A stretch of 64,000 nucleotides of DNA, taken from Armatimonadota bacterium (GTDB taxonomy: Bacteria > Sysuimicrobiota > Sysuimicrobiia > Sysuimicrobiales > Sysuimicrobiaceae). The translations under genes were made by a program, and so were the position numbers. The stretch is taken from contig JANXCW010000004.1 of the NCBI GenBank assembly GCA_025059775.1, positions 124,001 through 188,000 on the forward strand. The letters are read 5' to 3'. The notes beneath the pieces were generated by a model, which was given only the letters and a program-made list of their open reading frames with translations, did not search any database and was not told the DNA's origin. This document shows, one piece after another, positions 51,701 to 59,024 of the stretch. Position 1 is the stretch's first letter; each line of letters starts with the position of its first letter.

Positions 51701-53527
51701 CTAGTCCTCCAGCAGGGTCACGGTTCCCGCGTCGCCGTCCACCCGGATCCGCTGACCCGTCCGGATGCGCTTGGTTGCGGATCCGGTCCCCAGCACCGCG
51801 GGGATCCCGTACTCCCGGGCCACGATGGCCGCGTGGGACATCATGCCGCCGATGTCGGAGACCGTGGCCCGGATCCGGGAGAAGACCGGGGCCCAGCTGG
51901 GCTCTGTCACGGAGCACACCAGGATTTCGCCTTCCTGGACCTCATGCAGCTGGTCCACGCTGAGGACCACCCGCGCGGGCCCCTCCACCACACCGGGCGA
52001 GGCCGCGAATCCCCGGAGGACCTTTTCCTCCGCCTTCTCGGGCTCCAGCCACGCCCGCAGGCGCTCCGGGGTGATCCCCCAGAGCATTACCACCGCGGGA
52101 TCCACCACGGCCTCTGGAACGGTCCCCAGGGCCGGAGGCGGGTTCCACTCCCGCAGCCTCTGCAGCAGCTCCCGCCGTCGGGCGATGATGGGGGGCCAGT
52201 ATACGGGTCCCCGGGCCGGCGACCCGATGGTCCAGGAAAGCAGGAGGTCCATAAGGGCCTGGTGGACCTCGCTCCAGTGCAGGTAGAAAATGTCCTCCAC
52301 GTCCTGGAAGAACCCCTGTCGGACGAACAGGGCTCCCAGCTCCCGCACCTTGTTCCAGAACACGCTCTGGTACCAGTGCTCCACGTAGAACTTGTGGTCC
52401 TCGATGGAGTAGTACACGTTGCGGACAAGTCCCAGCAGTTGGTCGAACGCCTTTCGGTCCTCCTCCGTCTGCAGCAAAGCGCGATAGCCCTCCGTGATCT
52501 GGTCCCGATCCCGCCGGCGACCTTCGATGTCCCGCTCCAGGGACTCCCCGCGCTTCACCTTCGCCACGTAGTCGCACAGGATGCCGAAGACGGCCCCCGG
52601 ATCGTCCACCCACGCCCGGTGGTGATGGTGGAACCCGTCCCCGGTGTTCATGTAGAACCAGGGGTCGGAACTCCGCCGCCACTCCTCGAGCCACGTCCGT
52701 CCGGCCTCGCTCCCCGCGAGGGCCTCGAACACCTCCTTCACATTCGCGCCGGCCTGGAAGAGGGAATCCACCCCTAGCTCTACCGCGCGCTTCGCCAGTC
52801 GCTTCAGCTCGTCGTTGGGGCGGAACATGCTTACGTCAATGGCGCCCACCATGCGGGTGATGGCCTGATCCGAGATCTCGGGAAACGCTTTCTTGCAGAA
52901 CTCGTAGAAGGTGAAGTAGGCGGCGAAACCGATCATCACGATCTCCATATGGATCTGCCAGATCCGGAAGATACTCTCCAGCAGCCGGTGGTATGCCTCG
53001 AACACCTCCTGTGAGGTGCCGTATCCCTTCCGCTCAAACACCAGCCGCTCGTCCTCCACCTCCGGGAGCTCCGGGAACCGGATGGCCTTCAGCTGCTCGA
53101 TCTCCCGCTTGACCTTCTCCCGCCACTCCTCGTAGAACCGCGGCCAGTTCTCGAAGTAGTACCCCGCCCGGCGTTCGAAGAGCTTGGCCCGCTCCTCGAT
53201 CTTCTTGGGATCCGCCACCGCGGTGGGACTGATGTACAGCCGGCCGTTCAGGAACCGGAAGTCAATTCCCATGGCGGGCGGGATGGCGAACATGCGGCTG
53301 CTCATCTCCCCGATGCCGAGGTAACCCGCCTCGAATCCGATGGTGTCAAACGGGTGCACGGCCTCCGGGGCGTGCATGCCATTGTAGAACCACAGTTTGT
53401 TCTCCTCCTCCGATTTCCGGTCCTCGCTGAACAGGAGGTAGTACGGATACATCTCCGCCCAGCCCTCGCAGCCGGGGGGCGTCTCGATCTCGAACGGGCT
53501 CTGGAACCGCAAAGCGTCCGACATCAT
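51701..53527 (-). CDS. PEP-utilising phosphohistidine protein, phenylphosphate-synthase alpha-like
   Basis: 608 residues. The C-terminal 80 are a PEP-utilising mobile domain with the phosphohistidine in GGMMSHAAIVAREYGIPAV (about 565). The N-terminal 480 residues lack the PEP/pyruvate TIM barrel and are instead a mostly helical domain rich in Trp, Tyr and Phe (EGWAEMYPYYLLFSED, FDTIGFEAGYLG). This matches the 70-kDa subunit of phenylphosphate synthase, where the helical part binds the phosphoryl acceptor. With the next gene it should phosphorylate a hydroxylated compound at ATP expense. A GGGGGAGGGG site sets the ATG. First gene of the operon. Confidence 0.82.
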   Translation of the reverse strand: MMSDALRFQSPFEIETPPGCEGWAEMYPYYLLFSEDRKSEEENKLWFYNGMHAPEAVHPFDTIGFEAGYLGIGEMSSRMFAIPPAMGIDFRFLNGRLYISPTAVADPKKIEERAKLFERRAGYYFENWPRFYEEWREKVKREIEQLKAIRFPELPEVEDERLVFERKGYGTSQEVFEAYHRLLESIFRIWQIHMEIVMIGFAAYFTFYEFCKKAFPEISDQAITRMVGAIDVSMFRPNDELKRLAKRAVELGVDSLFQAGANVKEVFEALAGSEAGRTWLEEWRRSSDPWFYMNTGDGFHHHHRAWVDDPGAVFGILCDYVAKVKRGESLERDIEGRRRDRDQITEGYRALLQTEEDRKAFDQLLGLVRNVYYSIEDHKFYVEHWYQSVFWNKVRELGALFVRQGFFQDVEDIFYLHWSEVHQALMDLLLSWTIGSPARGPVYWPPIIARRRELLQRLREWNPPPALGTVPEAVVDPAVVMLWGITPERLRAWLEPEKAEEKVLRGFAASPGVVEGPARVVLSVDQLHEVQEGEILVCSVTEPSWAPVFSRIRATVSDIGGMMSHAAIVAREYGIPAVLGTGSATKRIRTGQRIRVDGDAGTVTLLED

Positions 53528-53780: not shown

Positions 53781-54473
53781 TTAAGCCCGCTCCCCCAGGG
53801 GAGGCTCCGTGCCCACGATCTCGCTCTGGCGGATCCTCGCGAGCTCCACCAGCCAGTCGGGGTCCTCGTAGACGTAGTCCTTCCGGAGGGGATGCCCCTT
53901 CCAGTCCTCCGTCATGAGGATCCGGCGCAGATCCGGATGTCCCTCGTACACCACGCCGAAGAGGTCGTAGGTCTCCCGCTCGTGCCAGTTGGCTCCTACC
54001 CACAGATCGCTCACCGTAGGGATCCGGGGGTTCGTCCGATCCACGGGCACCTTCACCAAGAGCTCGTGGTTGTGCACGGTGGACCACAGGTGGTAGGTGC
54101 ACTCCAGGCGATCCCCCCAGTCGATGGCGCTGCAGAAGGAGAGGTAGTCCAGCCGGAACTCTGGGTCGTCCCGCAAGAACCGCATCACCTCCCGGAAGCG
54201 CGAAGGCGGCACCCGGACAGCGGGGGTGAGGTACCGGTGGACCGCGGGTTCCTCCCGGCGGGGGGGCCGGGGCGGGGCCTTTCCTTCCGCCCTGGCCCGC
54301 TCCACCTCCTCCTGGTAGGCGCGCAGCCGCTCCTGCTGCTCCCGCTCGAACCGATCCAATTCCTGTCGGGCTGCCTCCACCAGGTCTTCCACCTCGGGGA
54401 AGTGCTCCCGCAGCCTCTGGAGGAGGGCTTCCGGGAAATGGCCGCCCGCGGGTCGGGGGCTGGGGAAGGTCAT
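53781..54473 (-). CDS. nuoC: NADH-quinone oxidoreductase subunit C
   Basis: 230 residues. The C-terminal 30-kDa subunit signature is present: HNHELLVKVPVDR, then WHERETYDLFGVVYEGHPDLRRILM and the GHPLRKDY end. The N-terminal part holds an unusual highly charged helix (about residues 40-75, rich in Glu, Arg and Gln) followed by a Pro/Arg linker not seen in typical NuoC. The start overlaps the nuoI stop (ATGA). It is last in the order B-D-I-C, while canonical operons run B-C-D. Confidence 0.92.
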   Translation of the reverse strand: MTFPSPRPAGGHFPEALLQRLREHFPEVEDLVEAARQELDRFEREQQERLRAYQEEVERARAEGKAPPRPPRREEPAVHRYLTPAVRVPPSRFREVMRFLRDDPEFRLDYLSFCSAIDWGDRLECTYHLWSTVHNHELLVKVPVDRTNPRIPTVSDLWVGANWHERETYDLFGVVYEGHPDLRRILMTEDWKGHPLRKDYVYEDPDWLVELARIRQSEIVGTEPPLGERA

Positions 54474-54934
54474 CGCAGGATCCCTCGGGCGATGGGCTCC
54501 TTGGGGGCGGCCCGGTGGAGGTCTTCGAGGGTGTAGAGGAGGTTGGCGCGGTTGTAGGTGCTGGCCTCGTAGTGTGGTGTGAAGACGATGGCCTCCGTGG
54601 GGCAGACCTCCACGCACAATCCGCAGTACTGGCATTTGTCCATCTCGATGTCAAATCGGGTGAGAACCCGCTCCTTGCCCCGACCCGTGGCTTCGATGTG
54701 GATGCAGCGGCTGGGACAGATGCGCTCACACTGGAAGCAGATGATGCACTTGTCGTTGCCGATCTCGCTGTCCACGGGGAGGGCCAGGAGTCCATGCCAG
54801 CGGGGGGAGACGTTGGACTTCTCGAGCGGGTACAGCAGGGTGGCCTTGGGTCGGGCCGCGGTGCGCAACGTCTCCCGCAGCCCCGTCACCAGCCCTCGGA
54901 CCGCCGCACTGGCTTTCTCCAGGACCGCCGGCAT
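54470..54934 (-). CDS. nuoI: NADH-quinone oxidoreductase subunit I
   Basis: 154 residues, a 2x[4Fe-4S] ferredoxin-like subunit of the complex I peripheral arm. Cluster motifs CIICFQCERICP and CQYCGLCVEVCP are complete. The N-terminal amphipathic region (about 1-35) should lie along the membrane as in other NuoI. It passes electrons towards cluster N2 in NuoB. Coupled to nuoC; 9 nt from nuoD. Confidence 0.94.
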   Translation of the reverse strand: MPAVLEKASAAVRGLVTGLRETLRTAARPKATLLYPLEKSNVSPRWHGLLALPVDSEIGNDKCIICFQCERICPSRCIHIEATGRGKERVLTRFDIEMDKCQYCGLCVEVCPTEAIVFTPHYEASTYNRANLLYTLEDLHRAAPKEPIARGILR

Positions 54935-54943
54935 TCCTCCCTC

Positions 54944-56056
54944 CTACCGATCCACGTCCGCGAGCACGATGTCGATGCTACCCAGAATGGCGATCACATC
55001 CGCCACCTTCCACCCCTTCATCATTTGGGTAAGGGCGAACAGATTCGAGAACGACGGCGCCCGGATCTTCACCCGCCACGGCGTCTCGGCGCCGTGGCTG
55101 ACGAGGTGAATCCCCAAATCCCCCCTCGGGCTTTCCACCCGGGTATACACCTCGCCCGGGGGAAGGCGTGGGGTGAGGGAGACCCGGGGTGCCCGAACCT
55201 CCCCGTCCGGCATCTGGTCGAGACACTGGAGGATGATTTTCGCGGACTCCCGCATCTCATCCATGCGCACCAGATACCGGGCAAAGCAGTCGCCCTCCGT
55301 GTACACGGGTACCTGGAACTCCACCCGGTCGTAGGCCTCGTAGGGATGGCTCTTGCGTACGTCCCAGGAGAGGCCGGAGGCCCGGGCCACGGGCCCGGAA
55401 GCTCCGAAGGCGATGGCCTGCTCCCGGGTGAGTACTCCGATCCCTTGCGTCCGGGCCTGCCAGATGGGGTTCCCGGTGAGCAATCGGTGGTACTCCTGGA
55501 GCCGGTTCAGGAAGTAGTGGCAGAACTCCCGACACCGATCGGTCCAGCCCGGAGGCAGATCCTCGTTCACCCCGCCGATCCGGAAGTAGACGTGGTGGAG
55601 CCGCCCCCCCGTGACGGACTCGAAGAGGTCCATGATGAGCTCCCGCTCCCGCATACACCACAGGAACGCGGTGGTGGCGCCAAGATCGATGCCGTAGGTC
55701 CCCAGCCACAGGAGGTGGCTGGCGATGCGCTGCAGCTCCATGAAGATGGTGCGGATGTACCGGGCCCGCTCGGGCACCGGGATCCCACCGAGGGTCTCCA
55801 CGGCCCGACAGACGGCCATCTCGTTGATGAGGGCCGCGAGGTAGTCCATTCCCCGGTCCGCGAGGGCGATGCACTGGGTGTAGTTGCGGTGCTCCATCAT
55901 CTTCTCCACGGAGGAGTGGAGGTAGCCGATGTCCGGCTGGACCTCCACGATGTTCTCCCCGTCCAGGGTGACCACCAGCCGCAACACCCCGTGCGTACTG
56001 GGGTGCTGCGGTCCCATGTTCAGGATGAGCTCCTCCGTGCGTAGGGCCTTTGCCAT
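54944..56056 (-). CDS. nuoD: NADH-quinone oxidoreductase subunit D
   Basis: 370 residues of the 49-kDa subunit, which with NuoB forms the quinone pocket. LNMGPQHPSTHGVLR, the HRNYTQCIALADRGMDY region and GGVNEDLPPGW are typical. The terminal cysteine pairs of [NiFe]-hydrogenase large subunits are absent, so this is complex I rather than a group 4 hydrogenase. It starts 2 nt after the nuoB stop. Confidence 0.95.
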   Translation of the reverse strand: MAKALRTEELILNMGPQHPSTHGVLRLVVTLDGENIVEVQPDIGYLHSSVEKMMEHRNYTQCIALADRGMDYLAALINEMAVCRAVETLGGIPVPERARYIRTIFMELQRIASHLLWLGTYGIDLGATTAFLWCMRERELIMDLFESVTGGRLHHVYFRIGGVNEDLPPGWTDRCREFCHYFLNRLQEYHRLLTGNPIWQARTQGIGVLTREQAIAFGASGPVARASGLSWDVRKSHPYEAYDRVEFQVPVYTEGDCFARYLVRMDEMRESAKIILQCLDQMPDGEVRAPRVSLTPRLPPGEVYTRVESPRGDLGIHLVSHGAETPWRVKIRAPSFSNLFALTQMMKGWKVADVIAILGSIDIVLADVDR

Positions 56057-56058
56057 TC

Positions 56059-56646
56059 CTAGGCTCCTCGGCGGGTCAGGCGCCGTTCGCGCCGGATCTT
56101 CTCCTGCAGCTTCAGCACACCCTCGATGAGGGCCTCCGGACGCGGGGGACAGCCGGGCACGTATACATCCACGGGGATGACGGTGTCGATGCCCTTGAGG
56201 ATGGAGTAGTTGTCGTAGAAGAAGGGGCCGCCGCAGGTGGCGCAGCTCCCCATGCTGATCACGTACTTGGGCTCTGGCATCTGCTCCCACAGACGCCGAA
56301 CCACGGGCGCCATCTTGATGGTGCACCGGCCGGAGACGATGATGAGGTCCGCCTGACGGGGTGTGGCCCGGGGAATGACCCCGAACCGGTCCAGGTCGAA
56401 CCGGGTGGCGAAGGCCTGCATCATCTCCATGGCGCAGCACGCGAGCCCGAAGGTCAGGGGCCAGAGGCTACTGGCCCGGGCCCAGTTCAGGACGTTCTCG
56501 ATGGTCGTCAGGAGCAGCGCCCCACCCGGCAGCTTGTACAGCACGTCCGCCAGCTGCTCGATGGGAGCCACCTGCGAGCCCTCCACGGGGATCCGCGCGA
56601 TGGAGGTCACCTCCGGGCCACCGGAAGGGATCGGGCCGTCTCTCAT
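56059..56646 (-). CDS. nuoB: NADH-quinone oxidoreductase subunit B
   Basis: 195 residues holding cluster N2. Ligands are the tandem cysteines in [10 protein letters not shown], then [10 protein letters not shown] and PGCPPRPE. The start at [10 protein letters not shown] is chosen because GGAG lies 6 nt ahead; an ATG 30 nt upstream and a TTG further out are weaker. nuoA is not upstream, which is unusual; murA is there instead, with a hairpin between. Confidence 0.93.
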
Positions 56647-56705
56647 GCTCGTCTCCGCGGAACCGTCCTGGGGCATACCCACTGCTAGATTCTGGCACAA
56701 GAAGC

Positions 56706-56724
56706 GCCTGCCCTCAAGGCAGGC
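56706..56724 (-). terminator. 7-bp hairpin spanning the murA stop codon
   Basis: GCCTGCC and GGCAGGC around a 5-nt loop that contains the murA TGA. CTTCTTGT follows, a weak T-rich tail. It lies between murA and nuoB and may partly uncouple the two units. Confidence 0.4.
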
Positions 56725-58015
56725 TGGATCCCGTGGTGAGCACGGGGGACTCCACCACCTTCACCCGCCGTACGTCCGCACCGAGCCCCCGCAGCTTCTC
56801 GTCCAACCCCTCGTATTTCCGGTCGATGTGCTCCACCCCGTGGATCTCCGTCACCCCTTCAGCCACCAGCCCGGCCACCACCATGGCAGCCCCTCCCCGG
56901 ATGTCCAGGGCCTGGACGGCCGCCCCCGTCAACCGTTCCACCCCTCGCAGATACGCGGTGTTGCCCTCCACCCGGATATCCGCCCCCAGCTTCAGGAGCT
57001 CGTAAGCGTAGCCCATGCGGCCGTCGTAGATGGTCTCCCGGATCACCGCCTCGCCCTCCGCGGTGGCCAGCATGGCCACGAAGGGGGGGTGGAGGTCCGT
57101 GGCGAAGCCGGGGAAGGGTGCGGTGTCGATGTCCACGGCCCGCAGGCGCCGCTGGGCCCGCACCCGTACCCGGTCCGTGTTCGCCTCGATCTCACACCCG
57201 GCCTCCGCGAGCTTCGTGAGCAGGGCGGTGACGTGCTCTGGGATGAGCCCGTCCACCTCCACATCTCCCCGGGTGGCGGCGCCCGCGATGAGGTACGTAC
57301 CCGCCTCAATGCGGTCCGGGATGACCGCAGTGCGGGCCCCGTGGAGCTCCCGGACGCCCTCGATGAGGATGGTGGGCGTGCCTGCACCGCGGATGCGGGC
57401 CCCCATGAGGTTCAGGAACACCGCGGTGTCCGTGACCTCCGGTTCCAGGGCCGCGTTGTGGAGCACGGTGGTGCCCCGGGCCAGGGTGGCGGCCAGCATG
57501 AGGTTGATGGTGGTGCCCACGCTGCGGCGCGGCACGTAGAACTCCGTCCCCCTGACCTCCCCCGCCCACCCGACCATGTACCCCCGCCCCGTCGTGACCT
57601 CCGCGCCCAGGGCCTGGAACCCTCGGATGTGGAAGTCCACGGGCCGACCGCCGATGCTATCCCCGCCGGGGAGCCCCACCTCGAACCGTCGGAACCGCGC
57701 GAGCAACACACCCGCGGCGTAGTAGGAGCCCCGGATGCGGCCACACAGATCCGCGGGGGCGTGGATCCTCTCAAGCCCGCGGGCGTCGATGGTGCAGATC
57801 CCCCCTGCCACCTCCACCTCGCAGCCCAGGGCCCGCAGGATGTCCGCCATCACCAGGACGTCGCGGCAATGTGGGACGTTCTCGATCACGGAGACGTCCG
57901 CGGCCAGGGCCGCGGCGGCCATGATGGGAAGCACGGTGTTCACCGCACCGGCCACCCGGACCGTCCCCTGCAGCTTCCCTCCCCCCCGCACGACCAGGAG
58001 CTCGGTGGCGCTCAT
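56714..58015 (-). CDS. murA: MurA-like UDP-GlcNAc 1-carboxyvinyltransferase with altered active site
   Basis: 433 residues, two inverse alpha-beta barrel halves, aligned to MurA along the whole length. Retained positions include Arg95 (RGS, E. coli R91), Arg124 (R120), the [10 protein letters not shown] aspartate (D305) and the DIRGGAAM arginine (R397). Two key positions differ. The loop cysteine that fosfomycin alkylates (E. coli C115) is Asp119 in [11 protein letters not shown], and the PEP-contacting lysine (E. coli K22 in GAKN) is Val25 in GAVN. Asp at 115 is known in fosfomycin-resistant MurA; loss of K22 is not expected in an active enzyme. Coupled to ireB by ATGA overlap. Confidence 0.87.
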
Positions 58016-58281
58016 GCCGACCTCAACGCGGGCTCGATCCGCTGCTCCACGTAAAAGCGCACCAGCTCATCGAGGATCCGGTCCCGGCTCACCCTGCGGA
58101 TAAGGGAGCGGGCCCTCCGGTGGCTGGTGATGTAGGTGGGATCCCCGCTGAGGAGGTAGCCCACCAGCTGGTCCCGGGGGCTGTAGCCCCGCTCCCGCAA
58201 AGCCCGGTACACCTCCAGCAGGATGCGGAAGACATCCTCCTCTCCTTCCCCCACCCGGTAGATCCCCGTCTGCTCCGTCAC
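58012..58281 (-). CDS. ireB: IreB/ReoM family regulator (UPF0297)
   Basis: 89 residues, the exact family size. [21 protein letters not shown] and the [12 protein letters not shown] end match UPF0297. In Enterococcus IreB and Listeria ReoM are phosphorylated on N-terminal threonines by a PASTA kinase; ReoM then controls ClpCP degradation of MurA. Thr2 and Thr5 here sit where those threonines lie. In Bacillota the gene is next to ruvX; here it directly precedes and overlaps murA. GTG start overlaps the menG stop (GTGA). Confidence 0.9.
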
Positions 58282-59024
58282 CCTTCTCCCTCCCCTCGGG
58301 GCTTGCAGGCCACGTACACCGCCACGGCGCCACCTGCCAGGTCGTGCACCTCCACCGGCGCGAATCCCGCGTGCTTGAGGATTTCCGGAAACTCCCGCTG
58401 GTCCGGCCACTCCCGGATGGAGACCGGCAGGTAGAGGTAGGCGTCCGGATGCCGGGAAAGGCAGTGCCCCACCCAAGGGATCACGGTGAAGGAGTAGAGG
58501 TCGTAGAGGGATCGGAACAGAGGGTTCCGGGGCTGGCCGAACTCCAGGATCACCAGCCGTCCACCCGGCCGCAGGACCCGATGGAGCTCCCGCAGGGCCC
58601 GGTCCAGATCTGCCACGTTGCGGATCCCGAACCCCACCGTGGCGGCATGGAAGGCCTCATCCGGGAGCGGGAGGGATTCCGCATCACCCTGCACAAACCA
58701 CAGCCCCTTCCGGCTCCCCGCGCGGGAACGGGCCACCTCCACCATGGGACCCGAGAAGTCCACCCCTACCACCCGGCCGGCTGCCCCCGCCCGCTCCCAG
58801 AGCAACAGGGCGAGGTCCCCGGTCCCGCAGCAGACGTCGAGGGCAGCGTCTCCCGGCGCGATTCCGGTGCACGCCACCGCGAACCGTTTCCACCGACGGT
58901 GCAGTCCGAGGCTCAGCAGGCCGTTCAGGAGGTCGTAACGGCGGGCAATGCGGCTGAACATGGCGCGCACGTACGCCCGCTTCTGCTCCGGAGGGAGGGA
59001 AGAACGGCCCGCCTGGATCGCCAC
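58278..59024 (-). CDS. menG: Demethylmenaquinone/ubiquinone C-methyltransferase
   Basis: 248 residues of the UbiE/MenG family: [20 protein letters not shown] near the N-terminus, SAM-binding [11 protein letters not shown], and [13 protein letters not shown]-type motif. It carries out the last methylation of menaquinone, consistent with quinone-using nuo genes next door. The GTG start has no ribosome site, but a TACAAT -10 ends 7 nt before it, suggesting a leaderless mRNA. Confidence 0.92.

Follow-up and report, generated by a model that had tools for sequence, protein, structure and literature searches.

A phylum-wide ireB-murA gene pair in CSP1-3/Sysuimicrobiota suggests IreB control of a single MurA with an unusual active site

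The window, a stretch of 64,000 nucleotides from a genome assigned to the phylum CSP1-3, now named Sysuimicrobiota (PMC11604079), carries on its minus strand a small ireB/reoM gene whose end overlaps the start of murA. The genes and codons considered here are the following.

58278..59024, minus strand: ubiE/menG methyltransferase gene (profile match), upstream and outside the conserved pair
58012..58281, minus strand: ireB/reoM (UPF0297), 89 aa, GTG at 58281, TGA at 58012
58267..58269, minus strand: codon of IreB Thr5, which corresponds to the ReoM phosphosite Thr7 in the alignment to 6tif
58141..58143, minus strand: codon of IreB Asp47, which corresponds to Asp50 of E. faecalis IreB, required there for MurAB binding
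58012..58015, minus strand: ATGA overlap of 4 nt between the ireB stop and the murA start; a GAGG lies a few nt upstream of the ATG
56714..58015, minus strand: murA, full-length, 433 aa, ATG at 58015, the sole MurA of the genome
57941..57943, minus strand: codon of MurA Val25, at the position of the catalytic Lys22 (K22V)
57659..57661, minus strand: codon of MurA Asp119, at the position of Cys115 (C115D, the known fosfomycin-insensitive type)
56816..56818, minus strand: codon of MurA Lys400, at the position of Gly398 (G398K), next to Arg397 and specific to the family
56059..56700, minus strand: nuoB (profile match), downstream of murA, an adjacency found only in the window's family

The overlap reads ...GGTCGGCATGAGC..., with the murA ATG and the ireB TGA having four nucleotides in common, and the GAGG upstream of the ATG is likely the ribosome-binding site. 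At its other end, the GTG of ireB overlaps the stop of ubiE/menG as GTGA (58278-58281). The original prediction had called ireB and murA fused by the ATGA overlap and directly coupled in translation. The overlap itself was seen directly, but "fused" is too strong for what are two overlapping ORFs, and the coupling by ATGA is confined to the window's genus, whose other genome (G001) has the same overlap. Outside the genus, the distance between ireB and murA is mostly about -16 to +69 nt and varies with the choice of start codon. Both nuoB and nuoD lie downstream of murA in the window, and positions 53781-56700, right after murA, show a Complex I-like order of nuoB, nuoD, an 8Fe ferredoxin-like ORF and nuoC in the window's family only; nuoB and nuoD were identified by profiles, and the names nuoI and nuoC were given by reading the sequence. 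A long ORF at 51701-53500, which adjoins the nuo genes, resembles a PEP-synthase or PEP-utilising enzyme on reading of its sequence, its start being uncertain.

The small ORF had been proposed as a UPF0297 protein, and profile searches identify it as a true IreB. It matches Pfam PF06135 (E=4e-29, 101.1 bits, cut-off 25) and NCBIfam NF003997, "IreB family regulatory phosphoprotein" (103.6 bits, cut-off 91), its relatives in the PDB are ReoM 6tif (6.5e-23) and IreB 5us5, and its 89 aa agree with the length of about 80-90 aa that accompanies the profile match in IreB/ReoM proteins. In the alignment, the phosphosite threonine is kept across the phylum within the motif E-[RKQ]-T-G. Thr2 and Thr5 had both been put forward as phosphosites; Thr5 is conserved in the phylum and Thr2 is not. 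The aspartate of the SGDP loop, Asp47 here, is also present and conserved. ReoM Arg62 is retained as Arg58, whereas ReoM Arg57 is replaced by Ser53; both arginines are required in Listeria, and Arg57 is just 57% conserved in the family (PMC7286690).

The larger ORF matches PF00275 (E=5.7e-92) and the TIGR01072 equivalog model (474.4 bits, cut-off 392.7). The genome has two EPSP-synthase genes, of which this one is MurA; the other, examined as a possible second MurA, was rejected as AroA-like, lying downstream of aroB- and aroQ-like ORFs. The label "MurA-like" was apt in a way that had not been foreseen, as the protein is the genome's only MurA and yet is without Lys22. This Lys22-less MurA is the most surprising part of the locus and was absent from the original prediction. 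In E. coli numbering (the frame of the Enterobacter reference sequence agrees with PDB alignments), K22V, C115D and G398K occur together in 7/7 distinct MurA sequences from seven genomes of the window's family, namely the window and L031, L034, L035, L176, L177 and L178, while Lys22 and Gly398 are found in all 29 MurA sequences of other families. The window's MurA keeps N23, R91, Arg120, Asp305, Arg331, Arg371 and Arg397. The MurAs of the family are monophyletic inside the phylum tree, on the longest family stem branch, and a horizontal gain of the odd MurA is accordingly unsupported. Loss of peptidoglycan as the cause of the Lys22 loss was ruled out by the presence of MurB and the Mur ligases.

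Conservation of the gene pair was assessed in 43 genomes of the phylum, all of one order. ireB was present in 37 of them, and in every one of the 37 murA was the next gene downstream, in the same orientation, the edges of the two matches lying 11-108 nt apart; this consistency argues that the adjacency is not due to chance. The six genomes that lacked ireB also lacked a complete murA, consistent with both genes being on missing contigs. Loss of the adjacency in relatives had been named in advance as the outcome that would speak against the pair, and the relatives kept it. The pair was found in five families (f1, f2, f4, f5 and f7), and its surroundings differed between them: the order ubiE-ireB-murA-nuoB occurred only in f1, truA was often a few kb upstream of ireB outside f1, and ubiE reappeared near the pair in f7 and a single f5 genome. 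Since the flanks (truA, ubiE, nuo) vary between families and the pair stays, what is conserved as a unit is the pair. Among named genomes, the ireB locus had close relatives in Bacterium HR32 (79% identity) and in the ANGP1 MAG NP_3. We take Bacterium HR32 and ANGP1 to be members of the phylum CSP1-3.

Comparisons with named loci outside the phylum gave a different picture. Among 80 named ireB loci, murA was found at four, all of them CSP1-3; in the flanks (up to 5 kb, some contigs being shorter) of the other 76 there was none, and an IreB-MurA adjacency in Firmicutes was rejected on these loci. By contrast, ruvX, the typical neighbour at Firmicutes loci, was detectable within 800 nt downstream of ireB in 52 of the 76, in agreement with the predicted contrast between ruvX and murA neighbours, and in CSP1-3 ruvX is located away from ireB (G000:C2). 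No earlier published mention of an ireB-murA adjacency was found in the open literature. The adjacency across the phylum is evidence from gene order that IreB and MurA are partners beyond Firmicutes, and the earlier suggestion of independent genomic evidence for the ReoM-MurA partnership is strengthened by it.

The remaining genes of the pathway are found elsewhere in the genome. A PASTA Ser/Thr kinase (Pkinase 188 bits, at least three PASTA repeats) lies on contig C2, clustered with FHA, FtsW and PBP genes, and PASTA domains were detected in 40/43 genomes of the phylum. A ClpC with a UVR motif is encoded on contig C9, and MurB and the Mur ligases are present. With the kinase on C2 and ClpC on C9, the module is not self-contained, contrary to what had been suggested for regulator and target. 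A search of the window's genome with two Pfam models (PF13672 and PF00481) found no PP2C phosphatase; in family f7, PP2C matches were located near PASTA repeats on the same contigs. The kinase cluster in G000:C2, L206 and L213 has the order fmt, Zn-protease-like gene, rsmB, rlmN, FHA, FHA, ftsW, pbpA and PASTA kinase. In this cluster, other genes fill the slot that prpC holds in Firmicutes.

From the conserved pair and the Firmicutes precedents, we consider it likely that IreB acts on MurA as a kinase-gated brake, as it does in Firmicutes, the two being kept here as an operon pair. Unphosphorylated IreB would bind the single MurA and cut its output, by direct inhibition, by delivery of MurA to ClpCP, or by both, two routes that cannot be separated by sequence. 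Wall stress sensed by the PASTA kinase would lead to phosphorylation of IreB at Thr5, and the phosphorylated IreB would release MurA, allowing more synthesis of peptidoglycan precursor. The position of ireB directly upstream of murA would tie the amount of the brake to the amount of the enzyme, and such matching may matter more where there is only one MurA. We infer the binding of MurA by IreB, the phosphorylation, the direction of control and the co-transcription of the two genes.

Two studied systems in Firmicutes are the closest parallels. ReoM of Listeria monocytogenes (lmo1503, PDB 6TIF), which works with PrkA, ClpCP and MurA, belongs to the same protein family, and the genes for a PASTA kinase, ClpC and MurA are likewise all present here; ReoM controls the degradation of MurA by ClpCP, and phosphorylation of its Thr7 acts as the switch (PMC7286690). 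Unlike in this system, the pair is in a non-Firmicutes phylum with one MurA, and ireB adjoins murA, which reoM does not in the Firmicutes loci examined. Substitutions N197D and S262L in Listeria MurA abolish ReoM binding (PMC8959180), and the corresponding residues are replaced here by Val199 and Ala264, which counts against a simple transfer of the mechanism, as does Ser53 of IreB in place of ReoM Arg57. IreB of E. faecalis (PDB 5US5), which works with IreK, MurAA and MurAB, is of the same family; it binds and inhibits MurAB, and either phosphorylation or D50A abolishes both (PMC12077105). This published direct inhibition is the best model for IreB here, although E. faecalis has two MurA paralogues and a different gene order, and the lack of a PP2C match in the window's genome differs from that system and counts against the reading of IreB as a kinase-gated brake. 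In Mycobacterium, CwlM is likewise phosphorylated by a PASTA kinase and sets the activity of MurA (PMC8959180), but it is unrelated to IreB, and MurA is activated by phosphorylated CwlM. For structure prediction, loci that have ireB and murA in the same frame were translated across the stops, which gave natural paired fusions. Two fused-chain AlphaFold2 runs, a weak test with a single chain and 11-53 sequences, gave pTM values of 0.75 and 0.72, the level expected with IreB undocked; the linker was disordered, and IreB was not confidently placed.

The gene order might also be inherited without direct regulation, with ireB standing before murA by ancestry and acting on other targets. The adjacency may go back to a single ancestral event, since the genomes all come from one order of one phylum. 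IreB of Firmicutes also acts on additional targets (PMC12077105), and the MurA contact residues of Listeria are not conserved here. Nevertheless, the pair persists while both flanks reshuffle between families, and regulator and target have already been tied experimentally in Firmicutes (PMC7286690, PMC12077105), which makes this explanation unlikely in our judgement. A narrower version of the brake on MurA has IreB acting solely through ClpCP proteolysis, without direct inhibition. ReoY is a second adaptor in Listeria. In Listeria and B. subtilis the control works by proteolysis (PMC7286690), and a ClpC with a UVR domain is present here. With a single MurA, however, proteolysis would on its own be a crude means of control, and E. 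faecalis provides a documented case of direct inhibition (PMC12077105); we lean against the proteolysis-only version while giving it real weight.

The unusual active site raises a further possibility, that the MurA of the window's family is degenerate and catalytically dead and is used by IreB as a scaffold. K22V, C115D and several further family-specific active-site changes would fit this, as would the stem branch of the family, the longest of any family in the MurA tree. We regard it as very improbable, because it is the only MurA in seven genomes, MurB and the Mur ligases are present, N23, R91 and the other residues named above are retained, C115D enzymes show activity in vitro, and E. coli remains viable with Lys22 changed to F, I, N or T (PMC9842644). 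The MurA of the family is taken to be most likely active despite K22V, because these genomes revealed no other gene that could supply the precursor. Deep mutational scanning in E. coli showed that K22F/I/N/T are tolerated and C115D is not, and that G398 tolerates almost nothing (PMC9842644); given this tolerance at Lys22, the residue is not a strict criterion for MurA membership. Lys22, Arg120 and Arg397 jointly hold the phosphonate of fosfomycin (PMC4790336), and a lysine beside Arg397 could thus be placed to replace Lys22. Along with the brake on MurA by IreB, we tentatively propose, at less than even confidence, that the family has swapped its active-site set (Lys22 to Val, Cys115 to Asp, with a compensating Lys398) and has a MurA that would be active without Lys22 and under IreB control.

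IreB/ReoM control of MurA is known from only a few Firmicutes, and largely through genetics. A fixed ireB-murA pair in a non-Firmicutes phylum suggests that MurA control is the core and old function of the family, and a system with one MurA is a simple setting in which direct inhibition could be told from proteolysis. The Lys22-less MurA is a naturally occurring test case for a disputed question in MurA catalysis, the role of Lys22, which has long been called crucial. If the enzyme is indeed active, it argues against Lys22 as an obligatory general acid, and the active-site swap, if true, predicts natural insensitivity to fosfomycin. The Asp115-type MurAs of Mycobacterium, Chlamydia and Borrelia have the same Cys115 to Asp change and are of the fosfomycin-insensitive type (PMC4790336); unlike these, the MurA described here has also lost Lys22 and has a new lysine at 398. 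An Asp115 was also observed within the phylum in genus g14 of family f7 (L026, L027 and L028), whose MurA has GGDDFG versus GGCxIG with Lys22 intact, a probable second and independent origin of this type.
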